A stretch of DNA of 64,000 nucleotides from the NCBI GenBank assembly GCA_021157415.1, contig JAGGWN010000122.1, positions 1 to 64,000 of the forward strand. The letters run 5' to 3'. Made by a program: the position numbers and the translations under genes. The first letter of the stretch is position 1; each line of letters begins with the position of its first letter. Origin of the DNA: Bacteroidales bacterium. Its GTDB lineage: Bacteria > Bacteroidota > Bacteroidia > Bacteroidales > VadinHA17. Positions 2,373 through 29,015 of this stretch are shown here, piece by piece. Below the pieces are notes generated by a model. That model made no database searches. It was not told the DNA's origin and saw nothing but the letters and a program-made list of their open reading frames with translations.

Positions 2373-2627
2373 GATCCCTTCATAGTTTATTGACTGAATT
2401 CTCATGCAATAAAAGCGTATGATAGCATTGTCAGGTAAGCATATTTTTCTCATTCTCTTATTTTCCGGGATAATTCGGCTATTAGGCATTGATTCTTCCC
2501 GTGCAAAAAAAGGAAAATGATTAGGCAGAGATTTGAAACGCTACCCCTGCAGAGCCAGGGACAAAATTTCATGGGTGTCCAAAGCAAAAACAGGGCATTT
2601 AGGTTTGTGAAAACAAAAAAAAATAAA

Positions 2628-13590: not shown

Positions 13591-14592
13591 ATGAAAAAGA
13601 TAAATATTGCACTCATCGGTACCGGATATATAGCTGATTATCATGCACGAGGATTATTGGATCAGGCTGGTGTGAACTTGACAGGGGTGGCCGCGGCTAC
13701 CGGAACCTCTGTGGAAAAGTTTGCTGCCCGCTATCACATAGAAGGAGTCTTAACCACCGATGTTTCCTCCTTGGCAGACCGCGATGATGTGGATGCTGTG
13801 GTCATCGGTACGCCCAATAAGTTTCATGCCCCTTATGCCCTGGAATTTCTCAGGAAGGGAAAGGATGTCTTTCTGGAAAAACCCATGGCCATGAATGCCG
13901 CAGAAGGGGAGGAGATCATGAAAACGGCAAAAGAAACGGGCCGGCTGGTGATGGTGGGTCATATGTGGCGCTTTGACGAAGAAGTGAATTATATGAAAAA
14001 GGTGGTGCTTTCCGGAGCATTGGGAAAGATTGTCAAGTCCAAAGGTTATGGCATTCATGTAAACTGGGGGCCTGAAGGTTGGTTCACCAAAAAGGAACTG
14101 TCCGGCGGAGGTGCTCTGATTGACATGGGGGTCCATGCCATTGATACGGTCAGATATATTCTGGGGGATCCCGACCCCGTGAGTGTCTATGCCCGGATAG
14201 AAACCTGCTACGGAGAGTACGATGTGGATGATACCGGGGTGTTGGTGATCACCTGGAACAACGGGACGATATCTATAATCGAAAGTGGCTGGTGGCAACC
14301 ACACATGGACGGCCCCGAAGCAGCTACCCGCCTGTTCGGTACGAAAGGCTATGGAAGCGTTTTCCCTACCTTTATTAAAAAGAATGATACCCGCGAAGAT
14401 TACAGACTGTCAGGCCCTGCAAAAACCGAGCACTGTGACCAGCGTATCTATACGCGTCAGATGGAACATTTTATTGCATGCATAAGAAACCGGCAACAAC
14501 CTTCTCCGGGAATAACAGAAGGACAGACCATTATGAAGATTGTGGATGCGGCTTACTTGTCTGCACAATACCATAAGGTGATCCGGTTATAA
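13591..14592 (+). CDS. Gfo/Idh/MocA family NAD(P)-dependent sugar dehydrogenase
   Basis: The protein has 333 residues. The N-terminal Rossmann fold has ALIGTGYIADYHARG, and FLEKPMAMN provides the family's EKP motif with its catalytic Lys. The C-terminal half carries GGGALIDMGVHAIDTVRY, with the Asp and His usual at the active site. There is no signal peptide, so it is cytoplasmic. Members oxidise or reduce hydroxyl/keto groups of sugars and cyclitols. Its position behind the DegT aminotransferase suggests a two-step keto/amino interconversion of the imported product. It is the last gene before a 294-base gap and SusC. Confidence 0.9.
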   Translation: MKKINIALIGTGYIADYHARGLLDQAGVNLTGVAAATGTSVEKFAARYHIEGVLTTDVSSLADRDDVDAVVIGTPNKFHAPYALEFLRKGKDVFLEKPMAMNAAEGEEIMKTAKETGRLVMVGHMWRFDEEVNYMKKVVLSGALGKIVKSKGYGIHVNWGPEGWFTKKELSGGGALIDMGVHAIDTVRYILGDPDPVSVYARIETCYGEYDVDDTGVLVITWNNGTISIIESGWWQPHMDGPEAATRLFGTKGYGSVFPTFIKKNDTREDYRLSGPAKTEHCDQRIYTRQMEHFIACIRNRQQPSPGITEGQTIMKIVDAAYLSAQYHKVIRL

Positions 14593-14886: not shown

Positions 14887-17800
14887 ATGAAAAGAAAAAT
14901 TTTCCAAGTGTTGTTTTTGTTAGTCGTGTTCTCAACGAGTACATTGGCACAAAAAACAGTTAGTGGTGTTGTCACGGATGATACCGGGAATCCTTTGCCC
15001 GGGGCCAATGTTACAATCGTTGGCACGATGCAGGGAACCATTACCGACCAGAATGGTTACTACAGTATACAAGTCCCTTCGAATGAAACGGTTCTGCAGT
15101 TTTCTTTTGTAGGTATGGAAACCCGGAAAATAAAAGTGGGTGACAAAACATCCGTTAATGTTACACTCAAAACATCTTCAGTTGGATTGAATCAGGTTGT
15201 GGTAACTGCTTTGGGCATTTCCCGACAAAAAAAATCCCTGGGTTATGCTGTGGGAGAGGTTGAAGGGAAAGACCTTACGGATGTGCCCCATGAAAATGTG
15301 GTGAGTTCACTTGCAGGAAGAGTGTCCGGGGTTGCCATTAGTTCAACGTCCGGACCCGGCTCCTCTGTCAGTATGGTGATTCGCGGGGCATCTTCTTTGA
15401 CCAGCGATAATCAACCATTGTTTGTGGTGGATGGTATTCCAATGAATAATACACTAAACAATGTGACAGAGATGGCCCGGGATACGAAAGTAGACTACGG
15501 AAATGCTATTTCGGATATCAATCCGGAAGATATTGAAAGCATTTCCATACTTAAAGGACCAAGTGCTGCTGCCCTATATGGATCAAGGGCCGGTAATGGT
15601 GTGGTACTTATTACAACAAAATCCGGAAAAAACAGTAAAGGAGTAGGCGTAACGGTATCTTCCAGTACGGTTCTTGATAATCCTTACAAGTACCTGCCTA
15701 TGCAGACACTTTTTGCCAACGGGAAAAGGCCTTACACTCAGGATAACCGCCCGAATAACGGGTTGCCTTATTATTCGGTACCAGCAGGATCGTCAGGATG
15801 GGTTGGCCCTCAGTTAGATCAGGGTATGATGGCTTACCAGTGGCCCTATTTCAATGAAAATGGGGAGCTTACTGCACGACCATTGGTATCACATCCTGAC
15901 AATTATAAGAATTTTTTCCAAACGGGATTTACGACAGAAAATGCAGTGGCTGTTACCAATGCCACGGATCGAATGAATTATCGATTATCATATAGTAATA
16001 TGCAGAACAAAGGGGTCATTCCTAATAGTGACATGCACAGAAATTCGCTGAATTTAAATTCTTCAGTTAAAATAGTGAAAAACCTTACGGTTACTACAAA
16101 CCTTAATTATGTGAATACCGGTGCAAAAAATCGTCCGGCAGGCAACCGTGGAGCAAATCCGGTGCAAGCACTTTATGATGTAAACCCCCATATAGACATT
16201 CTTCAAATGAAGAATTATTGGGAAGAGGGGAAAGAAGGCATCCAACAGAATGGACCTTATAACCTGGTAGTTAATAGTGATGGCTCCTACGGAAAAGACG
16301 ATATGGGGAATAATCCTTATTTTCTTGCAAATGAAGTAAATAATCCTTTTTCCAGATCACGGATTTTCGGAAATGCAAGGATTGATTGGGAGATACTCCC
16401 CGGTCTGTCTTTTATGGCCCGTTATAATCATGATCAATATAACGAACAAAGGGAAACAAAGATAGCTCCCAGCTACACCAAAGAACCAAATGGTTTTTAC
16501 GGATTGCAAAATCTTTTCAGAATTGAACAAAATACGGATTTCTTGGTTTCCTATAAAAAAGACGTAAGTAATTTTAGTATTTCTGCTTCTGCCGGAGGTA
16601 ATTACAGGTATCAGTATGCTACCAACCATACAACACAGGCAAAGAAAAGAGGTACAGGTTTGATTGTTCCCAATGTTTTTACGCTTTCCAATATTGCTCC
16701 GGATAATTTAACGTATTATTCCAGTTATTCCAAAAAGGGTGTTTATAGTTTATATGGTCTGGTGAGTATGGGATATAAGTCTGTGATTTACCTGGACTTA
16801 ACGGGTCGGAATGACTGGTCCAGTACGCTGCCCAAAGAAAGTCGTTCTTACTTCTATCCTTCGGCCTCCCTGAGTATGCTTTTGAATAAAATGATCGATC
16901 TGGGTAGTAAAGTATCTCTCATAAAACTGAGAGGTGGCTGGGCCATGGTCGGGAATGACACCGATCCATATCGATTGATGCCTACCATGGGAAATGCCGG
17001 GTCATGGGGAAACCAGACGCGCCTGACCACTTCAGGTACATTATTGCTTCCCGATCTGAAACCGGAAATACAAAGCTCTTGGGAAATAGGAACGGATCTG
17101 ACATTTTTTAACAATCGGTTATCGACTTCGGCTACTTATTACAAAGCAGACAATGAAAACCAGATTTTAGGCATCGGTCTTCCTCCTTCATCCGGCTATA
17201 CCTCCAAGCAGATCAATGCAGGTTTGATCGAAAGTAAAGGGATTGAACTTTCTTTGGGAGGAACTCCCATTCAGACCAACGATTTTTCCTGGGATATAAA
17301 TTTCGTATTCTCTAAAAATAAAACCATTATTAAAGAACTGGCGGAAGGCTTTGATTATATTAGACTATGGAGCGATGCCAAGGGAGGTGCATATTCTTGG
17401 GTTGGTGATGAAATTGGCCAGATTATTGACCGGGCTATGGTGCGGGTTAACGATCCCTCTTCTCCTTACTACGGATGGCCTATCCTGGATGATGAAGGAT
17501 GGGAAGATAGTGATCGCACCCTTCAGGATGAAAACGGAAACAGGGTTGCCCCTGTAATCGGAAACTTTAATCCAAAAGCATTGATAGGGATGCAATCTTT
17601 GGTTTCCTATAAACGTTTTACACTTTCTTTTAATCTGGATTGGAGAATTGGCGGACAATTTGTTTCCCAGACTTTCCGTTATGCAGAATCTGATCTTCAC
17701 ACCCAGAGGTGGCTGGATAAAGTGCATAACTTTAATAATATCAGTGACCTTCCAACCTACCTGAAGGAACATGCTGACCAGTATTTGCTTCCGGGAGGAG

Positions 17801-18291
17801 AGTTTTATGTGCTCGTTGGTGGTCCTACCAAGGAACTGGGAGGTCTTGAGCACACTGAAGGAGGTATAACCCTCTATGACGGTGTTTTCATGCCTGGTGT
17901 TGTGGGAGACTATGATGATAATGGTAAATTCATTCCTGTTCGTGAAAACCTGGGAGGCCCGGGCACTCCAACCATCCGGTATCAGGATTATTACGGATGG
18001 AGTTATACTCGTAATGCAACGTTTGATGCGGATTACATTAAACTTAGAGAAATCTCGCTGACCTATCAGCTTCCTGCTGTTTTGAAAGGTGTTAGAAATC
18101 TGTCTGTATCATTGTACAGTCGTAACATTATCCTTTGGACCAAAGCCAAAATAAATGTGGATCCCGAGTTGGCATTCCAGCCGGAAAGCGATGTGCAAGG
18201 AAATGGTATTCAGTTTAAGCAGGGAATTGAAAGATATAATGTTGCCCCCTGGACAATCCCCGTTGGTTTTAAATTAAATATAAGTTTCTAA
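14887..18291 (+). CDS. SusC/RagA family TonB-dependent outer-membrane transporter (pair 1)
   Basis: The protein has 1134 residues. A signal peptide ends near TLAQ, a carboxypeptidase-regulatory-like domain follows (about 23-105, VSGVVTDDTGNPLPGANV), then a plug (SSLAGRVSGV, SMVIRGASSL, PLFVVDGIPM, ISILKGPSAAALYGSRA) and a large beta barrel ending in an aromatic C-terminus (KLNISF). It imports glycans through the outer membrane with the SusD lipoprotein encoded 26 bases downstream. No anti-sigma-binding STN domain is present at the N-terminus, so sigma/anti-sigma control through this receptor is unlikely. It shares long barrel blocks with the second SusC in the window, for example NDWSSTLPKESRSYFYPSAS. 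Confidence 0.96.
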   Translation: MKRKIFQVLFLLVVFSTSTLAQKTVSGVVTDDTGNPLPGANVTIVGTMQGTITDQNGYYSIQVPSNETVLQFSFVGMETRKIKVGDKTSVNVTLKTSSVGLNQVVVTALGISRQKKSLGYAVGEVEGKDLTDVPHENVVSSLAGRVSGVAISSTSGPGSSVSMVIRGASSLTSDNQPLFVVDGIPMNNTLNNVTEMARDTKVDYGNAISDINPEDIESISILKGPSAAALYGSRAGNGVVLITTKSGKNSKGVGVTVSSSTVLDNPYKYLPMQTLFANGKRPYTQDNRPNNGLPYYSVPAGSSGWVGPQLDQGMMAYQWPYFNENGELTARPLVSHPDNYKNFFQTGFTTENAVAVTNATDRMNYRLSYSNMQNKGVIPNSDMHRNSLNLNSSVKIVKNLTVTTNLNYVNTGAKNRPAGNRGANPVQALYDVNPHIDILQMKNYWEEGKEGIQQNGPYNLVVNSDGSYGKDDMGNNPYFLANEVNNPFSRSRIFGNARIDWEILPGLSFMARYNHDQYNEQRETKIAPSYTKEPNGFYGLQNLFRIEQNTDFLVSYKKDVSNFSISASAGGNYRYQYATNHTTQAKKRGTGLIVPNVFTLSNIAPDNLTYYSSYSKKGVYSLYGLVSMGYKSVIYLDLTGRNDWSSTLPKESRSYFYPSASLSMLLNKMIDLGSKVSLIKLRGGWAMVGNDTDPYRLMPTMGNAGSWGNQTRLTTSGTLLLPDLKPEIQSSWEIGTDLTFFNNRLSTSATYYKADNENQILGIGLPPSSGYTSKQINAGLIESKGIELSLGGTPIQTNDFSWDINFVFSKNKTIIKELAEGFDYIRLWSDAKGGAYSWVGDEIGQIIDRAMVRVNDPSSPYYGWPILDDEGWEDSDRTLQDENGNRVAPVIGNFNPKALIGMQSLVSYKRFTLSFNLDWRIGGQFVSQTFRYAESDLHTQRWLDKVHNFNNISDLPTYLKEHADQYLLPGGEFYVLVGGPTKELGGLEHTEGGITLYDGVFMPGVVGDYDDNGKFIPVRENLGGPGTPTIRYQDYYGWSYTRNATFDADYIKLREISLTYQLPAVLKGVRNLSVSLYSRNIILWTKAKINVDPELAFQPESDVQGNGIQFKQGIERYNVAPWTIPVGFKLNISF

Positions 18292-18317: not shown

Positions 18318-20024
18318 ATGAAAAATATGAAAGTAATATATAATCTGTTTCTGGTTCTGTTTGCGATAATGTTTGTGTCTTGTGACAAACAACTTACCCA
18401 GCTGAACGTGAACCCGAATGGGGTAGACCCCGAAACGGTGAATCCCAATCTTATACTGGCAACAGTAATCTCAAACACCGCAAAGCCTTATCTTGAAATG
18501 GGCTTTGACGGTGATGTCGCCGGCGTTATGCAATATGTGCAAAAAAGTGGATGGAGTTCTGGTTTGAACAAATTCGACTGGGTCGGTGAACGTTCCTGGG
18601 GAGGTCCCTATGCCAATCTGAGAAATGCAAAACATCTGTATGAAAGGGCTCTGGAAGAGAATATGGAGTTCCAGCAAGGCGTCGCTATTGTCTTAAGAGC
18701 CTTCAATTTTGGCTATATCGCCGACTCGTGGGGAGATGCTCCTTATACCTATGCACTTAATGCCCCTGCAGGTGGACAGGAAGATATGTTTCCTGAATTC
18801 GATTCTCAGGAAGATATCTATCGTGGAATTATTGATGAACTTAAGAATGCCAATACATTATTGTCAAAACAAATTGGCGATTATAAAGGGATAGATCCGG
18901 ATGCTGATCTGATTTATCACGGCGATCCGGCAAAATGGAGAAAGTTTGCCAACTCACTTATGTTAAGATATTATTTGCGCGTATCTTCCAAGTTGCCTGA
19001 TTATGCTAAACAAGGCATTGAACAGATCGTGAATGATCCGGGTACGTATCCTTTCTTTGAATCCAATGACGATGATGCTACAATGGGATTTGTAGGATCC
19101 TATGAGGGTGATGCCTGGCCGAATGCCATTGCTTTTGATGCTTCCGAAAGTAACTTTAACAGGGTGCAACTTTGCGAAGGATTCAGGGATGAACTCGTTG
19201 CGCTGAATGACCCAAGAATTGGTGTTTGGTTCAATAAAGTCAGAGTGCCGATAAAAGTATCTACGGCCCACTCACCTGCAGCTGATATTGTTGTAGACGG
19301 AGTACGATATATTCACCCGGATTCTATGGCTGTTAGAAATTGGGTTGTATATAATAAAGATACCTGGGTTGATGATATTAATGCAGGCAAGGTTCTCGTT
19401 GATACGATGGACTATGTCGGTATTCCCGTGGGCTCCAGCGTCGGTGACGGATCAAGCTGGAACCTGAATCCCAACGTTATTCAGGGCGGCTTTAACGTGC
19501 ATTGTTCTGCTTTGGCTGATATGTACAAGGAAGCCAAAGGCGATTTGCTTAAAGCCAGACTGGTATCCTACGCTGAGGTATGTTTTATCCTTGCAGAAGC
19601 TGCACAAAAAGGATGGAATGTGGGAACTCAACAAGATTGGTATGAAAAAGGGGTTACAGCATCTTTTGATACCTGGGGGGTTAGTGACGATCTTTCTGCC
19701 TATCTCTCCGAAGAAGGTGTTGCCTACGACGGATCCCTGCAACAAATAATGGAACAGAAATGGATTGCTAACTGGACCGTGGCACATGAAGCTTGGTGTG
19801 ATTGGAGAAGAACGGGTCTGCCTTATTTTACCTTCGGCCCGACGGTAAGACGTGATGCCATGCCTATTCGTTTCCGTTATGGTGGTGATGAGAAAAACAG
19901 AAACAATGCCAACTATTTGAAAACTGTTAATAATCTCGAGGAAACTTCCTTTACTGCTCAGGATGGAAAAGATAGCTCCTGGTCCAGATTCTGGCTTTTG
20001 CAGGGAACGGGCAAACCCTACTAG
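18318..20024 (+). CDS. SusD/RagB family glycan-binding lipoprotein (pair 1)
   Basis: This 568-residue lipoprotein (LFAIMFVSC; start could also be the ATG at 18327) has LTQLNVNPNGVDPETVNPN near the N-terminus, typical of the SusD-like group of the starch-binding, outer-membrane-associated family. TPR-like helices follow, and conserved segments YIADSWGDAPYTYAL and ANWTVAHEAWCDWRRTGLPY. It captures the glycan at the cell surface and caps the SusC barrel. It ends LLQGTGKPY, as does the second SusD at 43627. A strong hairpin follows directly. Confidence 0.95.
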   Translation: MKNMKVIYNLFLVLFAIMFVSCDKQLTQLNVNPNGVDPETVNPNLILATVISNTAKPYLEMGFDGDVAGVMQYVQKSGWSSGLNKFDWVGERSWGGPYANLRNAKHLYERALEENMEFQQGVAIVLRAFNFGYIADSWGDAPYTYALNAPAGGQEDMFPEFDSQEDIYRGIIDELKNANTLLSKQIGDYKGIDPDADLIYHGDPAKWRKFANSLMLRYYLRVSSKLPDYAKQGIEQIVNDPGTYPFFESNDDDATMGFVGSYEGDAWPNAIAFDASESNFNRVQLCEGFRDELVALNDPRIGVWFNKVRVPIKVSTAHSPAADIVVDGVRYIHPDSMAVRNWVVYNKDTWVDDINAGKVLVDTMDYVGIPVGSSVGDGSSWNLNPNVIQGGFNVHCSALADMYKEAKGDLLKARLVSYAEVCFILAEAAQKGWNVGTQQDWYEKGVTASFDTWGVSDDLSAYLSEEGVAYDGSLQQIMEQKWIANWTVAHEAWCDWRRTGLPYFTFGPTVRRDAMPIRFRYGGDEKNRNNANYLKTVNNLEETSFTAQDGKDSSWSRFWLLQGTGKPY

Positions 20025-20050
20025 AAAATTGTCGTGGATGTTTTAAAAAG

Positions 20051-20090
20051 AAAAAAGTAAATAAGCCGAAGCTTATTTACTTTTTTTTGT
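20051..20090 (+). terminator. Strong hairpin terminator after SusD 1
   Basis: A perfect 16-base stem AAAAAAGTAAATAAGC / GCTTATTTACTTTTTT with a CGAA loop, followed by more T. It starts 26 bases after the SusD stop and ends 34 bases before the next gene, so it may end most transcripts while some reading continues into the downstream operon. Confidence 0.85.
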
Positions 20091-20123: not shown

Positions 20124-21515
20124 ATGATGAAAGAATATCATAAAAAGTGGGAACGGATAATAAGTATATTCTCTGTAGGGGTCATTTTTGTGTTCTTACT
20201 CACTGCCTGCCATAAGACAAGTCAGAAGCAGCAGCCGGTAACCCCGCAAACAGCTTTAAATGCTTACCTGAACAATCAGGATACAACTTTTTCCTGGCAA
20301 CTGAAAAACACAACATCAGAGTCTTCTTTGAAGATATACAGTATGCTCTTGACTTCCCAGCGGTGGCACGGGATCGTCTGGAGGCATACATTGACGATGA
20401 TCGTTCCGGATGAAAATAAGTATGACGGAGCCATGCTTTTTATTACAGGCGGGAAAAACGCAAACGGTATGCCGGTAAAGCGCTCCCATGATGATGAGTT
20501 TATTGCGACCATGGAGCAACTGGCACTTAAGCATAAGGCTACGGTAGCGATTATCTGGCAGGTGCCTAATCAACCTTTGTTTAATGATCTGACGGAAGAT
20601 CAACTGATATCCTATACTTTGCATCAGTTTGAGAATGATACGGATTACACCTGGCCTTTGCTTTTCCCAATGGTGAAATCGGCCGTTCGTGCCATGGATG
20701 CCGTGCAGCAATTTTCTGAAAATACACTCAATCATCCTGTTCACCGGTTTGTTGTTACCGGGGCCTCCAAACGCGGATGGACCACCTGGCTGACAGGCGC
20801 CATGGACAAACGAACCGAAGCCATTGCCCCGATGGTGATAGATGTGTTGAATATGCCGGTGAACCTGGATTATCAGGTGAAAGCCTGGGGTGATTACAGT
20901 ATCCAGATTGAAGACTATGTGAAACTGGGAATTCCGCAGGAAGTGCATTCAGGTAAAGGAAGCGCCATTGCAGCTATGGTCGATCCTTATTCGTACAGAA
21001 AAAAATTAACCATGCCCAAACTGATCATCAACGGTACCAATGACGAATACTGGCCGGTGGATGCCATCAAAAACTATCTTGATGAGATTCCCGGTGAAAA
21101 CTACCTGCTTTATGTCCAGAATGCTGGTCATGGCCTCGGAGATAAAAAGAAAGCCCTGACTTCTCTTGGTGCTTTTTTCGGACGCACACTTGCCCGGAAA
21201 CCTTATCCCCAATGTAAATGGAATGTGGTCCGGGAGGACACCAGGGTGGTTATGTCCGTCGAAACAAGTCATGATGAGTTGTTGGGAGTACATCTGTGGT
21301 CTGCTGTTTCGCAAGATCGCGATTTCCGCAAAGCTGTTTGGAACGGACAAGAAATAACGGCCATAAGCAATGACCCTGTTCAGGTGTCTGTGGATCTGCC
21401 CGCCTCGGGCTACAAAGCGTTCTTTGTGGATCTGGAATACAGGGATCCTAACGGTGGCTCCTGTAATAAAAGTACAAGAACGTTCGTGTTGAATCCAAAC
21501 GGTCTTGATGACTAA
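20124..21515 (+). CDS. PhoPQ-activated pathogenicity-related (PqaA-type) hydrolase lipoprotein
   Basis: This 463-residue lipoprotein (VFLLTACHK) belongs to the PhoPQ_related family: QRWHGIVWRHTL, FITGGKN, VTGASKRGWTTWLTGAMD with a Ser where an alpha/beta-hydrolase nucleophile sits, IAPMVIDVLNMP, INGTNDEYWPVDA (Asp position) and NAGHGL (His position). The fold is an alpha/beta hydrolase with a C-terminal Ig-like domain. In enterobacteria the family is linked to resistance to antimicrobial peptides, but the reaction is not known. Here it sits between a SusD and a sugar-phosphate cassette, so an esterase acting on decorated glycans or cell-surface material is one reading. Export and Ser-Asp-His layout are seen; the substrate is not. 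Confidence 0.85.
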   Translation: MMKEYHKKWERIISIFSVGVIFVFLLTACHKTSQKQQPVTPQTALNAYLNNQDTTFSWQLKNTTSESSLKIYSMLLTSQRWHGIVWRHTLTMIVPDENKYDGAMLFITGGKNANGMPVKRSHDDEFIATMEQLALKHKATVAIIWQVPNQPLFNDLTEDQLISYTLHQFENDTDYTWPLLFPMVKSAVRAMDAVQQFSENTLNHPVHRFVVTGASKRGWTTWLTGAMDKRTEAIAPMVIDVLNMPVNLDYQVKAWGDYSIQIEDYVKLGIPQEVHSGKGSAIAAMVDPYSYRKKLTMPKLIINGTNDEYWPVDAIKNYLDEIPGENYLLYVQNAGHGLGDKKKALTSLGAFFGRTLARKPYPQCKWNVVREDTRVVMSVETSHDELLGVHLWSAVSQDRDFRKAVWNGQEITAISNDPVQVSVDLPASGYKAFFVDLEYRDPNGGSCNKSTRTFVLNPNGLDD

Positions 21516-21576: not shown

Positions 21577-22611
21577 ATGGAGTATAAAGGAAAATATGAG
21601 GTCTTTGATGCTTCACAAATAAAAACGTATCCTGTCGCGGAAAGAGACAATAAGGTAAAACTCAGTGACCTGCTTGATCCTGCTCAGGTGACTGAGATGC
21701 GTTTTGATGTGTCGGACTATGTAAATGGACAAATATCAGAACTGGCTGGTGAGATTGTTTCTTCCCGCAAGAATGGCAAACCGGTGGTTTTTTTTACCGG
21801 TGCACACCTGATCAAAAACGGACTGGGAAAATTGGTGGCAGATTTGGTACATCGCAAGGTGTTTACCCTGGTGGCAGGAAATGCCGCCACTTCCATTCAT
21901 GATTTTGAATTGTGCCTCTTCGGCGAAACAAGTGAATATGTGCCGCAGGCCTTGGAAAAAGGCCAGTTCGGGATGGCCTTTGAGTTTAATTATCTAAACG
22001 GGGCGCTCATCGCAGGAAATAGACTGAACCTTGGTTATGGTGAGTCGGTAGGCAGGATGATGCATGACCCGTCGTTCCGGGAACAAGTGGAGGAAATTCT
22101 TGGACTGGAGAGGGGCACAATCAGATTTGAATATCCGGAAGTCAGTGTGCAATATGCATGTTTCCAGGAGAACATCCCCATGACCATCCATGCCGGTATA
22201 GGCACGGATGTGATTGATCAGCATGTCTGGTTTGACGGGGAGGCAAAGGGAGGATGCTCCGGCAGGGATTTCCTGATCTATGCACGGGAGATCACCGGGT
22301 TCACAAAAGGAGGGGTGATCCTGAATGTAGGCAGCGCTGTGACAGGTCCCGAAGTGTTTCTGAAAGCCGCTTCCATGGCCGGCAATATCGGCAAGGTGCC
22401 GGAAGGGATTATTACGGCTGATTTTGATATACGGCCTTATGATCCCCATAGTTTTACCAACGAAAAATCAGTGGGCTATTATTTCCGTGATCAGAAAAGT
22501 ATCGTAACCCGCGTGCCACAAGCCTACAACGGTAAAGGAATGTATATAGGCGGAAACCAGAAACAGACATTCCCGCTTTTCTATAAAAAAATGGTTGAAT
22601 TATTAGGGTAA
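21577..22611 (+). CDS. Deoxyhypusine synthase-like protein of unknown function
   Basis: This 344-residue cytoplasmic protein has GAHLIKNGLGKLVADLVHR, then AGNAATSIHDFELCLFGETSE. This order mirrors deoxyhypusine synthase, where a GLRKIIADL-like helix is followed by TGANLEHDL in an NAD-binding fold. Later come IPMTIHAGIGTDVIDQH and GGVILNVGSAVTGPEVFLKA, again like the DHS pattern of an NAD-site glycine turn. Bacteria have no eIF5A to modify, so the reaction must be something else, perhaps NAD-dependent transfer or a sugar/polyamine reaction. It opens the cassette with the kinase-phosphatase fusion, ROK kinase and GmhA-like isomerase; gaps are 62, 49 and 64 bases. The assignment to the DHS fold is moderate. 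Confidence 0.65.
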   Translation: MEYKGKYEVFDASQIKTYPVAERDNKVKLSDLLDPAQVTEMRFDVSDYVNGQISELAGEIVSSRKNGKPVVFFTGAHLIKNGLGKLVADLVHRKVFTLVAGNAATSIHDFELCLFGETSEYVPQALEKGQFGMAFEFNYLNGALIAGNRLNLGYGESVGRMMHDPSFREQVEEILGLERGTIRFEYPEVSVQYACFQENIPMTIHAGIGTDVIDQHVWFDGEAKGGCSGRDFLIYAREITGFTKGGVILNVGSAVTGPEVFLKAASMAGNIGKVPEGIITADFDIRPYDPHSFTNEKSVGYYFRDQKSIVTRVPQAYNGKGMYIGGNQKQTFPLFYKKMVELLG

Positions 22612-22626
22612 TATAAGAGGAAGAGA

Positions 22627-22648
22627 GAGACGCCCTTTCATGCGTCTC
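22627..22648. repeat. Short inverted repeat in cassette gap
   Basis: GAGACGC - 8-base loop - GCGTCTC between the DHS-like and kinase genes. There is no U-tract, so it is not a convincing terminator. It may be an mRNA stabiliser or a copy of a common Bacteroidota intergenic palindrome. Confidence 0.5.
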
Positions 22649-22673
22649 AAACTGACAAACAGAAACAGTAAAT

Positions 22674-24572
22674 ATGCAACAAGATCGTATCAAAGAAATC
22701 CTGAAAAAAATCAGCACCGTTCGTATTGCCGTCTATGGCGACTTTTGTCTGGATGCCTATTGGCTCATGGATCCGGAGGGATCGGAAGTATCGGTCGAAA
22801 CCGGCCTGAAAGCGGAAGCTGTAGCAAAGCATTCTTACTCCCCCGGAGGAGCCGGGAATATCGTGGCCAATCTGGCTGCTCTGAATCCTGCGGCTATTAG
22901 ACTTATCGGGGTCGTAGGGGATGATATTCACGGTCGTGAGCTGACTTCGCAGCTACAGGGTTTGGGTGCAGATACTTCGTCGCTGCTCATACAAAAAAAT
23001 AATTTTGACACATATACATATACGAAAAGGATTTTTGGTGATAAGGAGGGCTCCCGGATTGATTTTGGTCTGAAAAACAGACGTTCGGAAGATACAGATA
23101 AAAAACTCCTGCAAAATATAGAGATTGCACTGCGGGAGTATGATGCGCTTATCTTTAATCAGCAGGTGATGAACAGCATCCCAAACCCGGAATTTATCGA
23201 ACAGGCCAATGCTTTGTTTGATCAATACAATGACAAAATCGTAGTGCTTGATTCGCGTCATTATAATACTCTTTTTCGCAATGTGATGCGCAAGGCCAAT
23301 GACGTGGAAGTAGCTATCCTCAACGGATTGGATGTGACACCGCAAGATGATATTTCTTTGTCGGATGTGCGGAAACATGCCAGGAGTATTTTTGAACGGT
23401 ATCAAAAACCTGTTTTTGCTACCTGTGGACCCAAAGGTATCGTTGTGGCCGATGGCGAAGGGCTTCATGAGGTGCCCGGCATCCTGCTGACAAAGAAACT
23501 GGATACTGTGGGTGCCGGCGACACAACCATTAGTGCCCTTACCTCTGCCCTGGCAGCAGGGATCCCCCCTGTTGAAGCAGCGCGGTTTGCCAATCTGGCG
23601 GCAGCCGTGACGGTGCAGAAACTTTTTACCACCGGCACTGCATCAGGAGAGGAAATACTGGCCCTGAACCGTGAAGCCGTTTATAACTACCGTCCTGAAC
23701 TGGCTGAAGATATACGGTTGGCAAAATACCTACCGGAGACAGAATTTGAGGTGTGTGATCCCCGGGTGATTGATCGTTTCGGGAGCGTGAAGCATATTTT
23801 ATTTGACAATGATGGTACCATCAGTACATTACGTCAGGGATGGGAGACCGTTATGGAGCCGATGATGATCAAAGCGATTTTGGGTGATCAGTATAAAACA
23901 GCCGATACTTCTTTATACCACAGAGTATATCAACAGGTACAGGATTACATTGATGCTTCTACCGGTATTCAGACAATCCTGCAAATGGAAGCCCTGGTGG
24001 AAATGGTAAAACAATTCGGTATTGTTCCGAAAGAAGAAATACTGGATAAATTTGGTTATAAGAAAATTTACAATGATGCTTTGATGGAAGTGGTGAATAA
24101 ACGCCTGGAGAAATTGGAAAAAGAAGAATTGTCACGGGAGGACTTTACAATGAAAGGGTCGGTTTCATTTCTAGAACTACTCCGTGATCATGGTATGGTA
24201 CTTTATCTGGCCAGCGGAACAGACAGGGAAGATGTCCTGAACGAAGCAGAGAAATTGGGCTATGCTCAGCTTTTCAACGGCGGAATTTATGGGTCTGAAA
24301 ATGATATTGCCAAATATTCCAAGAAGATGGTTGTAGATAAAATAATTCGTGAGCATGACCTGCATGGGGATGAATTGATCGTATTCGGCGACGGACCGGT
24401 AGAAATACGTGAAGTGGCCGTGGCGGGAGGCATAGCCATCGGTGTGGCCAGCAACGAAGTGAGACGATACGGCTTGAACAGGAATAAAAGATCCCGCCTG
24501 ATACATGCAGGCGCCCATATGATTATTCCTGATTTCTCACAAAAGGAAAAATTGATGAATTTATTGTTTTAA
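22674..24572 (+). CDS. HldE-like PfkB sugar kinase fused to HAD phosphatase
   Basis: The protein has 632 residues in two enzymes. Residues about 1-340 are a PfkB/ribokinase-type kinase resembling the first domain of HldE/RfaE (IAVYGDFCLDAYW, SPGGAGNIVANLAAL, and LDTVGAGDTTISAL with the catalytic Asp). Residues about 372-632 are a HAD phosphatase: ILFDNDGTIS supplies the DxD nucleophile pair (D378, D380), then LYLASGTDRED, and a late VFGDGPVEIREV. The HldE nucleotidyltransferase domain is absent. In ADP-heptose synthesis the kinase makes heptose 1,7-bisphosphate and a separate HAD (GmhB) removes the 7-phosphate; here both classes are on one chain. The GmhA-like gene two positions downstream supports a heptose or similar sugar-phosphate route. 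Confidence 0.85.
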   Translation: MQQDRIKEILKKISTVRIAVYGDFCLDAYWLMDPEGSEVSVETGLKAEAVAKHSYSPGGAGNIVANLAALNPAAIRLIGVVGDDIHGRELTSQLQGLGADTSSLLIQKNNFDTYTYTKRIFGDKEGSRIDFGLKNRRSEDTDKKLLQNIEIALREYDALIFNQQVMNSIPNPEFIEQANALFDQYNDKIVVLDSRHYNTLFRNVMRKANDVEVAILNGLDVTPQDDISLSDVRKHARSIFERYQKPVFATCGPKGIVVADGEGLHEVPGILLTKKLDTVGAGDTTISALTSALAAGIPPVEAARFANLAAAVTVQKLFTTGTASGEEILALNREAVYNYRPELAEDIRLAKYLPETEFEVCDPRVIDRFGSVKHILFDNDGTISTLRQGWETVMEPMMIKAILGDQYKTADTSLYHRVYQQVQDYIDASTGIQTILQMEALVEMVKQFGIVPKEEILDKFGYKKIYNDALMEVVNKRLEKLEKEELSREDFTMKGSVSFLELLRDHGMVLYLASGTDREDVLNEAEKLGYAQLFNGGIYGSENDIAKYSKKMVVDKIIREHDLHGDELIVFGDGPVEIREVAVAGGIAIGVASNEVRRYGLNRNKRSRLIHAGAHMIIPDFSQKEKLMNLLF

Positions 24573-24621
24573 TTCCCTGATGAACCGGCTCGTGTGAACT
24601 ATAAACTCAAAACCAATCACC

Positions 24622-25623
24622 ATGATAAAACCTGACCATTATTACATTGGCTTTGATATCGGAGGAACGAAGTGTGCTGTGGTATTGGGGGACAATGATT
24701 TCAATATTTACGAAAAAATAACTTTCCCGACCCGTACTTCGGAACGGGGATGGTCGGAGGTGCTGGATGAGTTTAAGAAGCATGCCACATCTTTTATCAA
24801 TAAATATGACAGGAATAAGCTGGTAAAGATAGGTATCAGTTGTGGAGGTCCGCTGGATTCGAAGAAAGGAATCATTTATTCCCCACCCAACCTGCCCGGA
24901 TGGGATGCTGTGCCTGTAACCGGATTTTTTGAAAAAGCCCTCGGCGTACCTGCCATACTTCAAAACGATGCCAATGCCAGCGCTCTGGCCGAGTGGATGC
25001 TGGGTGCCGGAAAAGGTACACAGAATATGATCTTCCTGACCTTTGGTACGGGCATGGGGTCAGGATTGATCCTGGACGGTCACCTGTATGCCGGTACCAA
25101 TGACCTGGGAGGGGAAGTGGGCCATGTTCGAATGGCTGAAAAGGGTCCCGTAGGATTTAATAAAGCCGGATCCTTTGAGGGTTTCTGCAGCGGCGGAGGA
25201 ATCGCCCAACTGGCAAAGAAAATGGTTTCGGAGAAACTGGAGAACGGAGAACCCGTAGCTTTCTGTCCTGATACCACACACCTCCCTGAGATCACGGCTA
25301 AAACAGTCTTTGAAGCAGCACAAAAAGAAGACATTCTGGCCCTGGAGATCGTGAGGATCTCGGCCGAATATCTTGGTAAAGGACTGGCAATACTGATCGA
25401 TATCCTTAATCCCGAATGTATTGTAATCGGGAGTATCTATGCCAGAAATGAAGCATTGTTCAAACCGCATATGATGAAAATACTGAAAAAAGAAGCCATC
25501 CCTGCAGCATTGGAGGTGTGCAGGATCGTTCCTGCCGGGCTGGGCGACACCATCGGCGATTATGCTGCGCTTAGCGTGGCGCTGAATGATGAACCAGGCA
25601 ATGTGCAGGGTACACTGAAATAA
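24622..25623 (+). CDS. ROK family sugar kinase
   Basis: This 333-residue cytoplasmic kinase has YIGFDIGGTKCAVVLGD (phosphate-binding), GISCGGPLDS, LQNDANASALAEW (catalytic Asp region), TFGTGMGSGLILDG and NDLGGEVGHVRM (the ExGH-type substrate motif). The usual zinc-binding CxCGxxGC is replaced by GSFEGFCSGGGI, so zinc binding is not expected. ROK kinases phosphorylate hexoses such as glucose, ManNAc, GlcNAc or fructose. It lies between the kinase-phosphatase fusion and the SIS isomerase and may phosphorylate a sugar freed by the glycosidases. The substrate is not determined. Confidence 0.88.
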   Translation: MIKPDHYYIGFDIGGTKCAVVLGDNDFNIYEKITFPTRTSERGWSEVLDEFKKHATSFINKYDRNKLVKIGISCGGPLDSKKGIIYSPPNLPGWDAVPVTGFFEKALGVPAILQNDANASALAEWMLGAGKGTQNMIFLTFGTGMGSGLILDGHLYAGTNDLGGEVGHVRMAEKGPVGFNKAGSFEGFCSGGGIAQLAKKMVSEKLENGEPVAFCPDTTHLPEITAKTVFEAAQKEDILALEIVRISAEYLGKGLAILIDILNPECIVIGSIYARNEALFKPHMMKILKKEAIPAALEVCRIVPAGLGDTIGDYAALSVALNDEPGNVQGTLK

Positions 25624-25637
25624 AAAAGACAACGTAA

Positions 25638-25656
25638 AGACAAAGCAGCTTTGTCT
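25638..25656. repeat. Short palindrome in cassette gap
   Basis: AGACAAAGC-A-GCTTTGTCT lies between the ROK and SIS genes. It has no following T-run. It is the second palindrome in the gaps of this cassette and could mark a processing or stability site. Confidence 0.5.
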
Positions 25657-25687
25657 CCCGAAATGCCGAAAACAAACAGTCAAACGA

Positions 25688-26356
25688 ATGAAAGAAGAAG
25701 TTATCCACCAGTTATTGGTCCGTTATCCCGGCCTCAATACTTGCAAAGAGGATATTGAAGCAGCCTGCCGGGCAATTATCAGCAGTTATGAGCGGGGGGG
25801 AAAGGTGTTGGCTTGCGGCAATGGGGGCAGCGCGGCCGATGCCGGTCATATCGTCGGAGAACTGATGAAAAGTTTTGAAAAAAAACGTGTTTTGAAAGCA
25901 GAAGTGAGGGATGCCCTGGTGTCTTTGGATCCGGAACGTGGTTCCTATCTGGCGGAAAAACTGCAGGAAGGTCTGCCTGCTATCTCCTTGAACGCCCATG
26001 ACGCATTGATCTCAGCCGTTGCCAATGATATAAATGCTTCCCTGGTGTTTGCCCAGCAGGTGGCTGGATATGGAAAAAATGGGGATGCACTGATCGCCAT
26101 TTCCACCTCAGGGGATTCTCAAAACGTGATGGACGCCGCGCTCACAGCCAAAGCATTGGGAATGACTGTGATAGGTCTTACCGGAAAAACCGGAGGAAAA
26201 TTGAAACAATACTGCGACATCACGATTTGCGTGCCTGCTACACGCACGGCCGAAGTACAGGAGTATCATCTGCCTGTATATCATACAATATGCAGGGTGA
26301 CAGAGGAAAGGTTTTTTAGTGAAAATTCCAGTAAACAAATCTCCAATTCCAAATAA
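25688..26356 (+). CDS. GmhA-like SIS-domain phosphosugar isomerase
   Basis: The 222-residue SIS protein has CGNGGSAADAGHIVGELM, the GmhA signature with its Ser and Asp near the sugar phosphate. SISTSGDSQNVMDA binds the phosphate, and RTAEVQEYHLPVYHTIC contains the GmhA active-site Glu and His. GmhA converts sedoheptulose 7-phosphate to D-glycero-D-manno-heptose 7-phosphate. At 222 residues it is longer than the common ~190; the extra part is an insertion at about 60-100 (KRVLKAEVRDALVSLDPERG) that may change specificity, plus a Ser/Asn-rich tail. It closes the cassette; the next gene begins 136 bases later. Confidence 0.85.
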   Translation: MKEEVIHQLLVRYPGLNTCKEDIEAACRAIISSYERGGKVLACGNGGSAADAGHIVGELMKSFEKKRVLKAEVRDALVSLDPERGSYLAEKLQEGLPAISLNAHDALISAVANDINASLVFAQQVAGYGKNGDALIAISTSGDSQNVMDAALTAKALGMTVIGLTGKTGGKLKQYCDITICVPATRTAEVQEYHLPVYHTICRVTEERFFSENSSKQISNSK

Positions 26357-26428: not shown

Positions 26429-26474
26429 ATTGTAATCTGGAAATGAATTGTAATTTGAAAATTGTAATATGGAA
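26429..26474 (+). repeat. Three imperfect 14-base direct repeats
   Basis: ATTGTAATCTGGAA, ATTGTAATTTGAAA and ATTGTAATATGGAA start at 26429, 26447 and 26461, ending 18 bases before the ATG at 26493. They may be a binding site, or just slippage-derived AT-rich sequence. Confidence 0.4.
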
Positions 26475-26492
26475 TTTTTAAAAGCTCAGATT

Positions 26493-29015
26493 ATGAAAAA
26501 GTTTACCTTTTGTTTTATACTTTTCCTTTTTATATTTATCACTTCCTGCCGGCAAGGGAATAAGCAGATTCCCCGGACCAGTCTAAAAGTGGGTCCTCAA
26601 TCCGACGGAAGCATCCTTCTGCCTACCAATCAGTTGTTGAGACCGGCGGGACTTCAGCTTACGTTTACCGGAAGGCCGGTGGATATGGCATTGAGTCCCG
26701 ACGGAAAATGGATTGCTGTGCTGAACATGAGTGCTCTTAATCTGATCCGTGTGCTTGACCGGACCATCATGCAGACCTTGCCTTTCCGGGGAGGGGGGTC
26801 CTTTCAGGGAATCTCTTTCTCGAAAGACGGGACCCGGCTCTTTGTCAGCCAGGCACGTGACAGAATTCTGGTCGCTGTGATGGATAAAGATCATGTTTTA
26901 CACTGGAGCGATCCGGTGGTGTTTTCCCCTGCAGGCATGGGAGGGAATCCAGTACCCGGGGGGTTTGCATTCAATGATGACGAAACCCGGATGTATGTGC
27001 CACTGAACAGGGACAATACCCTGGCGGTGGTGGATATGGAAGAAAGAAAGATGGTAGGTAAAATATCGGTTGGGGTGGCACCGTATGAGGTGATACTGTT
27101 ATCGTCGCAAAAAGCATATGTGAGCAACTGGGGAGGACGACATCCCGAAGCCGGAGAATCTGTTTACCCCAGCTCGGGAACCAAAATGCTGGTTGACCCG
27201 AAAACCGGTATTGCCAATAACGGGAGCCTGTCGGTTATTGACCTGGTAAAAGGAAAAGCAATAAAAAGTATTGAGACCGGACTGCACCCCGGAGCTATGG
27301 TGCTGAGCCCGGATAAGAAGCGTTTGTTCGTAGCTTGCGCCAACAGTGACCTGATAATGGTCATTGATACCAGATCAGATATAGTTACGGACAGTATATC
27401 CGTGCATCTGGACAAAGACCTGCCTTTTGGCAGTGCCCCCAATGCTTTGGCCGTTTCTCCGGATGGCAAACGCTTGTATGTAGCCAACGGCACCGACAAT
27501 GCTGTTTGTGTTATCCAACTTGACAATCAGAACCGGATCGCCGGCTTTATCCCTGTGGCATGGTACCCCGGTGCTTTGCTGCTGGACAAAAATTTCCTGG
27601 TCGTGGCCAACATCAAAGGATTCGGTGAAAGAAATCTGCGGGCCGACAGACCCGGTTACAACACCCATAACCCCCTGGGAAGTCTTTCCTTTATTCCTAT
27701 ACCCGGTCAGAAGACGTTAAAACAGATGACAAAAGTGGTTAGCAATAATAACCACTATGAGGCAGTACTCAAACAACTGACGGGAAAAAAGAAAATCCGG
27801 GGGAAAGTCCCGGTTCCTGTGTTTCCCGGACAAAAATCGGTTTTTGAACACGTGGTATATATCATCAAAGAAAACAGGACTTATGACCAGGTGTTGGGAG
27901 ACATGCCCGGGGGAAACGGGGATACGATGCTCGTACAGTTTGGCAGGGAAGTGTCGCCCAATCATCATGCACTGGCAGAAGAGTTTGGGCTGCTGGATAA
28001 TTTTTACTGCAGCGGCGTGTTAAGTGCTGACGGACATCAGTGGACCGATGAGGCTTATGTGACTGACTACCTGGAAAAATCGTTTGGAGACTTTCCCCGC
28101 AGTTATCCTTATGACGGGGATGACCCGCTGGCATATTCTCCGGCAGGATTTATCTGGGACAACGTCATGAATCATGGTCTGACATTCCGTAACTATGGGG
28201 AGTTTGTCAATGCGGACATAACACCGCGAAACGCTACTTTCAAAGAGATATATCAGGATTATATGGCCGGAACACACCACATCCGTATCCGGGCTAAAGT
28301 CAATCTTCCTCAGTTGCAGCCTTATACATGTCCTGTCTATATTGGTTTTCCCAATAAAGTTTTGGACCAGTACCGGGCGGATGTCTTTATTAAAGAATTG
28401 AAAAAATATGAGGAAAAGAATCGTTTTCCTAACCTGGTGATCTTGTTGCTGCCGAATGATCATACTTCCGGTACAAGGCCAGGCATGCCTGCCCCCGGCG
28501 CTGCCGTGGCTGACAACGACCTGGCGCTGGGACGCATTGTGGAGGCAATCTCCCATAGCAAATTCTGGAAAACAACCTGTGTCTTCGTCACCGAAGACGA
28601 TCCCCAGGCCGGCCTGGACCATGTGGATAGCCACCGTACCATAGGTTTTGTGATCAGCCCATATTCAAAACGCGGAAAAGTAATATCTGACTACTATACG
28701 CAGATAAGTATGTTCCGGACCATCGAGAATATTCTCGGAATACCTCCACTCAACCGGTTTGACAGAACTGCCGAACCGATGACCGGTTGCTTTACGGATA
28801 AACCGGATTTTTCTCCATACACCGCTATCCCTAACAATATTCCTCTTGATAAGATCAATCCTTCGCTGAAAGATCTCTCGGGAGATGCTTTGTTCTGGGC
28901 CCGGAAATCTATGGAGCAGGATCTGGACGATGTTGACAGGATCGATGAAGATACCTTTAACCGTATCCTCTGGCATGCCATGAAGGGATATGATGTTCCC
29001 TATCCTGAAATCTGA
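26493..29015 (+). CDS. YncE-like beta-propeller / alkaline-phosphatase-superfamily lipoprotein 1
   Basis: I choose the ATG at 26493 because the signal peptide MKKFTFCFILFLFIFITSC begins there; an upstream ATG at 26469 lies inside direct repeats. The product has 840 residues. About 40-420 is a seven-bladed YVTN/YncE propeller with repeated LSPDGK.....N blades (MALSPDGKWIAVLN, LAVSPDGKRLYVANG). About 450-830 is a phosphoesterase of the alkaline-phosphatase superfamily: IIKENRTYDQVLGD, SADGHQWTDEAY, LLPNDHTSG, MADND-type VADNDLALGRI and VFVTEDDPQAGLDHVDSHR carry the metal-ligand Asp and His residues. The closest known family members act on phosphodiesters such as phospholipids. A paralogue lies at 53526. 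Confidence 0.9.
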   Translation: MKKFTFCFILFLFIFITSCRQGNKQIPRTSLKVGPQSDGSILLPTNQLLRPAGLQLTFTGRPVDMALSPDGKWIAVLNMSALNLIRVLDRTIMQTLPFRGGGSFQGISFSKDGTRLFVSQARDRILVAVMDKDHVLHWSDPVVFSPAGMGGNPVPGGFAFNDDETRMYVPLNRDNTLAVVDMEERKMVGKISVGVAPYEVILLSSQKAYVSNWGGRHPEAGESVYPSSGTKMLVDPKTGIANNGSLSVIDLVKGKAIKSIETGLHPGAMVLSPDKKRLFVACANSDLIMVIDTRSDIVTDSISVHLDKDLPFGSAPNALAVSPDGKRLYVANGTDNAVCVIQLDNQNRIAGFIPVAWYPGALLLDKNFLVVANIKGFGERNLRADRPGYNTHNPLGSLSFIPIPGQKTLKQMTKVVSNNNHYEAVLKQLTGKKKIRGKVPVPVFPGQKSVFEHVVYIIKENRTYDQVLGDMPGGNGDTMLVQFGREVSPNHHALAEEFGLLDNFYCSGVLSADGHQWTDEAYVTDYLEKSFGDFPRSYPYDGDDPLAYSPAGFIWDNVMNHGLTFRNYGEFVNADITPRNATFKEIYQDYMAGTHHIRIRAKVNLPQLQPYTCPVYIGFPNKVLDQYRADVFIKELKKYEEKNRFPNLVILLLPNDHTSGTRPGMPAPGAAVADNDLALGRIVEAISHSKFWKTTCVFVTEDDPQAGLDHVDSHRTIGFVISPYSKRGKVISDYYTQISMFRTIENILGIPPLNRFDRTAEPMTGCFTDKPDFSPYTAIPNNIPLDKINPSLKDLSGDALFWARKSMEQDLDDVDRIDEDTFNRILWHAMKGYDVPYPEI

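Follow-up and report, generated by a model that had tools for sequence, protein, structure and literature searches.

The closest described counterparts of the genes considered here are found in the ADP-heptose pathway of Gram-negative lipopolysaccharide (LPS), which comprises GmhA, HldE or HldA, GmhB, HldC, and HldD; in the GH92 polysaccharide utilization loci of Bacteroidota; in deoxyhypusine synthase (DHS) and the C-terminal domain of AgrE/ArgZ; and in nickel-pincer nucleotide (NPN) enzymes, i.e., the LarA superfamily and TIGR00300. Here, a four-gene cassette is compared with these systems. It lies in a 64,000-nucleotide stretch of a Bacteroidales bacterium (assembly GCA_021157415.1, contig JAGGWN010000122.1, positions 1 to 64,000; hereafter the window) and encodes a member of the GSU2086 family, termed DHSL, together with a PfkB-HAD fusion, a ROK kinase, and a GmhA-like isomerase, as follows:

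21577–22611, + strand: DHSL, GSU2086 family, DHS/ornithine-cyclodeaminase fold, 344 amino acids (profile match, fold)
22674–24572, + strand: PfkB-HAD fusion, 632 amino acids; residues ~1–340, HldE-domain-I-like kinase; residues ~353–632, C1-cap HAD
24622–25623, + strand: ROK-family sugar kinase, 333 amino acids (profile match)
25688–26356, + strand: GmhA-like SIS isomerase, 222 amino acids (profile match, residues)

The positions, the common strand, and the small intergenic gaps (62, 49, and 64 bases) were recovered as given in an earlier description made from the letters of the window (the original prediction). In the reading that we tentatively prefer, the module handles a heptose-like, manno-configured sugar, and DHSL acts as a hydride-transfer isomerase or epimerase, with NPN as the most likely cofactor in this lineage. 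The reading is based on homology, gene fusions, synteny, and co-occurrence, from which substrate, cofactor, and direction are inferred. DHSL, which the original prediction overlooked as such, is the defining gene of the module.

With the ADP-heptose pathway the cassette shares an SIS isomerase and a PfkB kinase of the same families, and GSU2086 relatives are situated in such operons in Geobacter, Omnitrophota, and Desulfuromonadia. However, the cassette has neither a nucleotidyltransferase nor HldD, its HAD is of another class, ROK and DHSL are added, and its GmhA-like protein carries an insertion; the module, in contrast to the pathway, also occurs in organisms without LPS. The window resembles the GH92 loci of Bacteroidota in its SusC/SusD pair, two GH92 enzymes, GH2 enzyme, and symporter, but differs from them by a conserved intracellular kinase/isomerase/phosphatase/DHSL cassette.

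Family, fold, and conserved residues of DHSL

DHSL exceeds the curated cut-off of the GSU2086 family NF052581 in NCBIfam (296.5 versus 250 bits, residues 10–337), a named family with no function on record, within which the window protein falls into a separate sugar-utilization clade that is ~36–39% identical to the clade found in LPS operons. Foldseek searches with its AlphaFold model (pLDDT, i.e., predicted local distance difference test, 95.8) returned DHS, ArgZ/AgrE, and the Methanococcus (archaeal) LOR/SDH protein as best matches, and the likeness to DHS and the AgrE/ArgZ C-terminal domain is one of fold (probability 1.0, E ~1e-8). The label "DHS-like" in the original prediction therefore holds for the fold but not for the family: no DHS family model was matched in Pfam or NCBIfam, identity is 11–18%, and the conserved residues and gene context are different. 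Residues H77, H108, E111, E120, D231, E259, K263, D284, R304, and R312 are invariant across 91 DHSL homologues. The ArgZ/LOR-SDH group also matches DHSL by sequence, including the HD-x-E motif, and its LOR/SDH family TIGR00300 is named "ornithine cyclodeaminase, nickel-pincer nucleotide-dependent" in NCBIfam. DHSL may accordingly be described as a candidate NPN-dependent (or NAD-dependent) sugar-phosphate enzyme. In two Paenibacillus loci (L120 and L121), DHSL occurs as a DHSL-DHSL tandem; H77, K80, and H108 are missing from the second half, an arrangement reminiscent of paired active and inactive subunits.

Distribution and constant partners

Searching 85,000 species genomes with the DHSL alignment as the query returned 79 loci. 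In these loci, read gene by gene, DHSL has a PfkB kinase as its neighbor in Bacteroidota, Planctomycetota, Bacillota, Chloroflexota, Verrucomicrobiota, Omnitrophota, Elusimicrobiota, Thermodesulfobacteriota, Bathyarchaeota, Brockarchaeota, and others. The DHSL, SIS, HAD, and PfkB types are tied to each other by fused open reading frames (ORFs): PfkB-HAD in ~20 loci, DHSL-SIS in six (archaea and Chloroflexota), and also SIS-DHSL (a spirochaete), HAD-DHSL (Kiritimatiellae), and SIS-HAD (Oscillospiraceae). Sugar ABC transporter, Gfo/Idh, HAD, DHSL, PfkB, and SIS genes form a compact set on a Chloroflexota plasmid, the PfkB of which is rfaE_dom_I-like (138.6 bits). Around the window cassette, relatives from within the genus, the family, and the order share the gene arrangement, with proteins ~60–90% identical, and since synteny holds both there and in other phyla, a chance arrangement is excluded. 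One relative (G013) retains just the PfkB-HAD and DHSL genes, adjoining a GH92 gene, which marks these two as the core. From these sequence comparisons, the module appears to be mobile and spread over many phyla, with DHSL, a PfkB kinase, and a HAD as its constant core and a GmhA-type SIS and ROK as frequent partners.

Other neighbors vary. In a Clostridiales genome (L117), the module is bordered by DegT and Gfo/Idh genes, as in the window, and an AGE-type 2-epimerase lies upstream of it in Planctomycetota. HldE-like genes with swapped domains (nucleotidyltransferase, then PfkB) stand directly beside DHSL in surface-glycan loci of the Solidesulfovibrio plasmid pDCAR1 (L227) and of a Lachnospiraceae genome (L144). 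In Sedimentisphaerales (L096:13040-16346), a glycyl radical enzyme and its activase are found directly downstream of DHSL-PfkB-HAD. A seemingly decayed second copy of the cassette, consisting of a GmhA gene followed by PfkB-HAD and DHSL fragments, was seen in relative G024 (contig 11; L039, 5441–6831).

Heptose operons and sugar-utilization loci

A tree of 101 DHSL proteins resolved four groups, which occur in two kinds of surroundings. Clade C, the original GSU2086 group, is located in surface-glycan operons: with GT9 transferases, HldA (397.7 bits, over the cut-off), and kds-type genes in Omnitrophota; with GmhA (223.9 bits, over the cut-off), followed by DHSL and HldE parts, in Desulfuromonadaceae; and with an HldA-like kinase and a GmhB-like phosphatase in Akkermansia-type genomes. 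In the transposon-sequencing (Tn-seq) data on electrode growth of Geobacter sulfurreducens, the consecutive genes GSU2085 (hldE), GSU2086, and GSU2087 (gmhA) scored −3.1, −3.2, and −3.7, respectively (PMC5585712). GSU2086 thus seems to be as necessary there as GmhA and HldE, although polar effects may contribute to the shared defect. HldD was found in 2 of 23 genomes with DHSL of the heptose-operon type (HldE in all 23 is not established) as against 6 of 9 HldC-positive relatives lacking DHSL. Because of the constant kinase companion, the Geobacter phenotype, and the rarity of HldD, DHSL may be regarded as a putative heptose-phosphate isomerase or epimerase, perhaps standing in for HldD.

Clade A, which includes the window DHSL, and clade B are found in sugar-utilization loci. 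Alpha-mannosidases recur beside the module: GH92 in Bacteroidota, and GH38 in Paenibacillus, other Bacillota, Armatimonadota/Zipacnadia, and Bathyarchaeota.

Association with nickel-pincer nucleotide genes

Genes of NPN synthesis lie in or close to the module in three phyla. Four Flavobacteriaceae loci show a larE-larB-larC-DHSL-PfkB-HAD-ROK-GmhA run (L092 being seen only as far as DHSL), and the ORFs of larC and DHSL share 4 bases in the Flavobacteriaceae locus L088. Paenibacillus montanisoli carries LarE, LarB, and LarC a few kilobases upstream of the module on the opposite strand, and in Ornatilinea (Chloroflexota) a LarC2 gene (130 bits against a cut-off of 50) is embedded in a ROK-LarC-PfkB-DHSL-HAD run. 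By size, the genes of 270, 217, 475, and 387 amino acids beside the Flavobacteriaceae cassette had suggested a uronate pathway (UxuB, KDPG aldolase, UxaC, and UxuA); the profile search identified three of them as LarE, LarB, and LarC.

Co-occurrence, although not strict across the family, points in the same direction. LarB is present in all 10 DHSL-positive relatives and in 9 of 20 relatives without DHSL; among 297 genomes of the phylum, it is found in 12 of 14 with DHSL, the other two having LarC, compared to 7 of 283 without DHSL. Fisher's test for the phylum gives 6e-15, or ~3e-6 when roughly collapsed to families, neither value being corrected for ancestry. Across 50 DHSL genomes from many phyla, LarB exceeds its cut-off in 36 and is split or partial in 2 more. 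The window genome itself carries a larC-larE-larB operon on contig 53. LarA was not found in three genomes that possess both DHSL and LarB (G157, G201, and G285). Another four genomes of the phylum set (G095, G148, G170, and G174) contain LarB with no match to LarA, DHSL, or TIGR00300 and represent unexplained NPN users. TIGR00300 had been considered as the reason for LarB-positive genomes with neither LarA nor DHSL, and it was present in 0 of the 297 genomes.

DHSL thereby resembles the NPN enzymes in its association with larB, larC, and larE and in its DHS-type fold, with an HD-x-E motif shared with cyclodeaminase/ArgZ. It differs from them in having no LarA homology (no Lar_N domain was matched in the profile search, which places it outside the LarA superfamily), in having sugar-phosphate genes as its partners instead of genes for 2-hydroxyacids or ornithine, and in that the cofactor is here a candidate. 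Judged by gene context, NPN dependence of DHSL is likely, and NPN made by LarB, LarE, and LarC would be its most likely cofactor in the lineage of the window. The broader proposition, in which GSU2086/DHSL constitutes a second large class of non-LarA NPN enzymes that performs hydride transfer on heptose-type sugar phosphates, replacing HldD in LPS lineages and forming the core of a new pathway in glycan users, is possible but is put forward with some doubt.

Kinases, HAD half, and isomerase

In the 632-residue fusion, the profile search assigned a PfkB domain (3e-31) and a HAD domain (8e-10). The best family of the kinase is rfaE_dom_I, with 128 bits, versus 65 for ribokinase. The original prediction had compared the cassette with a pathway that includes the GmhB phosphatase. 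The HAD half is not of the GmhB class: it matches no GmhB model (no search for a GmhB was made in the rest of the genome), and its fold is that of beta-phosphoglucomutase and C1-cap phosphatases. A sequence search of the PDB with the single HAD domain gave no match, and profile and fold searches led only to general C1-cap HADs.

The ROK assignment is at 7e-54. By eye, the window ROK kinase (24622–25623) has no CxCGxxGCxE zinc motif of the usual kind; the motif is also missing in close module ROK homologues and is retained by several ROK regulators near other cassettes.

The isomerase has an SIS_2/gmhA profile and retains the His-Glu and Gln-His residues of GmhA, together with the phosphate loop STSGxS, when aligned to 2XBL and across homologues; the His-Glu and Gln-His residues presumably have the metal-binding and catalytic roles that they have in GmhA. 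An insertion of ~30 residues follows the first H-x-x-x-E helix and is common to most module-type homologues. The affinity to heptose-phosphate enzymes that the original prediction had proposed is borne out by rfaE_dom_I as the best kinase family, by the retained GmhA residues, by the presence of DHSL in genuine gmhA/hldE/gmhB/kds operons elsewhere, and by the Geobacter Tn-seq result.

Proposed pathway and competing explanations

In the proposed scheme, secreted GH92 and GH2 enzymes probably act together with SusCD to free the sugar, with import probably through the SSF symporter. As expected from its family, ROK would phosphorylate the terminal hydroxyl group of the sugar, and GmhA, whose residues are observed, would interconvert heptose 7-phosphate and sedoheptulose 7-phosphate. 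PfkB-HAD may convert heptose 7-phosphate to heptose 1-phosphate via the 1,7-bisphosphate or shuttle the phosphate between the positions. DHSL would isomerize or epimerize one of these phosphates by hydride transfer, possibly at C6, where it would replace HldD. By way of ROK and GmhA, the window module would thus link the imported sugar, of manno configuration, to sedoheptulose 7-phosphate, and by way of PfkB-HAD to a sugar 1-phosphate.

Several findings weigh against this scheme, and some of them lend themselves to other explanations. DHSL and HldD coexist in L150, L153, and G024, and further glycosidase neighbors of the module (GH2, GH42, GH78, and heparinase-type) indicate that the sugar is not fixed. 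With regard to the cofactor, 12 of the 50 DHSL genomes have neither LarB nor LarC, mostly Clostridia and Brockarchaeota with clade B proteins; the DHSL of LarB-less genomes retains the conserved residues, and no residue signature in the homologue alignment separates LarB-positive from LarB-negative proteins. Either clade B members changed their cofactor or the link between DHSL and NPN is indirect. Moreover, the window genome has a weak LarA homologue that might be another user of the cofactor. The fold of DHSL admits either a pincer or NAD, because TIGR00300 is labeled NPN-dependent while crystals of DHS and AgrE, which share this fold, contain NAD. DHSL could hence be an ordinary NAD enzyme within the same heptose-phosphate module, with LarBCE co-occurring because LarA-type racemases or other pincer enzymes are common in anaerobic glycan degraders, as the LarA homologues of the window genome and several others would suggest. 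We consider this explanation unlikely, although less so than those that follow; it does not readily account for the lar genes that three phyla have within the cassette operon or adjacent to it (in one case Flavobacteriaceae, from a phylum where LarB is rare), or for the genomes with DHSL and LarB in which LarA was not found.

As for the substrate, both heptose-type assignments fall short of their equivalog cut-offs, the kinase with 128 bits against 345 for rfaE_dom_I and the isomerase with 147.8 against 209.45 for gmhA and 162.1 against 276 for PRK13936. Combined with the insertion, which lies beside the active site of the module-type SIS, and with the nearby GH92/GH38 alpha-mannosidases, these scores would agree with a module acting on hexose phosphates, e.g., derived from mannose or a rare hexose, with GmhA- and HldE-like enzymes having been co-opted for six-carbon substrates. 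This is rather unlikely, as the isomerase retains the GmhA metal/catalytic residues, and DHSL is a partner in true heptose/Kdo operons with a mutant phenotype identical to that of hldE and gmhA (PMC5585712).

The flow may run toward salvage as a 1-phosphate or toward breakdown to sedoheptulose 7-phosphate. The direction of the heptose-phosphate pathway raises a further difficulty, since a kinase and a phosphatase driving 7-phosphate to 1-phosphate suit salvage or biosynthesis better than degradation, whereas the surroundings look catabolic. A catabolic direction would be permitted if the HAD half were a beta-phosphomutase, for which PfkB makes the bisphosphate primer, so that the fusion interconverts sugar 1-phosphate and 7-phosphate reversibly. 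Beta-phosphoglucomutases are indeed the top Foldseek matches of the HAD half, and the half is fused to a kinase that would supply the primer. However, the profile search places it closer to phosphoserine and phosphoglycolate phosphatases, and mutase and phosphatase are not separable by fold alone, which leaves the mutase a distinctly unlikely candidate.

Finally, that the cassette is a decayed or relocated ADP-heptose operon for the LPS core is highly improbable: the GmhA, HldE kinase, and phosphatase gene classes are all there, but ROK and DHSL are no part of that pathway, the module is conserved with SusCD/GH genes and also found in Bacillota and archaea, and the genome has no canonical HldE domain II, HldD, or other GmhA. 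The cassette isomerase is the sole GmhA-like protein of the genome, the remaining SIS matches there resembling a long protein of the GlmS type and an etherase of the MurQ type; HldD had no match at E ≤ 1e-30 in this genome (G000); and no canonical HldE domain II/HldC nucleotidyltransferase was found in it (best match 57.8 bits, cut-off 181.5). The absence of a nucleotidyltransferase noted in the original prediction for the cassette hence holds, as regards a canonical enzyme, for the whole genome, and its view that the cassette does not build LPS core stands. An ordinary ADP-heptose operon elsewhere in the genome, coupled with a lack of conserved synteny of the cassette, was looked for and did not occur.

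The HldC-like match of 57.8 bits belongs to a different locus (contig 110, 9993–11153; L030:4994-6154), where a 386-residue protein combines a heptose-1-phosphate-type nucleotidyltransferase with an apparent GHMP-kinase domain beside gmd- and fcl-type genes. Several relatives have weak matches to this fusion of similar size.

The surrounding locus

The remaining features around the cassette are the following:

2517–4904, + strand: GH92 alpha-mannosidase-family hydrolase (profile match, synteny)
5000–7387, + strand: GH92 alpha-mannosidase-family hydrolase (profile match, synteny)
7510–9012, + strand: SSF sodium:solute symporter (profile match, synteny)
9558–12164, + strand: GH2, exo-beta-glucosaminidase-like (profile match, synteny)
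12176–13456, + strand: DegT/DnrJ/EryC1 aminotransferase (profile match, synteny)
13591–14592, + strand: Gfo/Idh/MocA oxidoreductase (profile match, synteny)
14887–18291, + strand: SusC-like TonB-dependent transporter (profile match, synteny)
18318–20024, + strand: SusD-like lipoprotein (profile match, synteny)
20049–20088, no strand assigned: very strong terminator-like hairpin of 18 pairs with a T tail, between the SusD and hydrolase genes
20124–21515, + strand: PhoPQ-related alpha/beta hydrolase, conserved immediate upstream neighbor
26469–29015, + strand: YVTN beta-propeller and phosphoesterase (PF04185), conserved downstream neighbor

The locus comprises a PHP hydrolase gene, then the genes in the order listed up to the cassette, and then the YVTN-phosphoesterase; having a SusC/SusD pair and glycoside hydrolases, it qualifies as a polysaccharide utilization locus. 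The cassette is not isolated, as the PhoPQ-related hydrolase gene lies 61 bases upstream, and the same-strand run extends from SusC (14887) to 29015, although the hairpin follows SusD.

Implications

Apart from the Tn-seq table, the open-licence literature searched yielded nothing on GSU2086 in connection with heptose and the pincer, or on a catabolic gmhA/ROK/DHS cluster. Each gene family was known beforehand; no description of the module, of its fusions, or of its association with nickel-pincer genes turned up in that literature. The novelty lies in how widely the pattern extends, DHSL being found with HldE-type kinases in archaea and in many phyla of bacteria. Since ~15% of surveyed genomes have larB, larE, and larC but no larA (PMC11796402), unknown proteins must use NPN, and DHSL, linked to lar genes at the operon level in three phyla, is a specific candidate. 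If the cofactor claim is true, DHSL would represent a new enzyme class and explain part of the genomes that make NPN without LarA. It would likewise give a role to an uncharacterized gene needed in Geobacter electrode growth, and a heptose-type sugar-phosphate module would be outlined beyond LPS biosynthesis, namely in archaea and Gram-positive bacteria.

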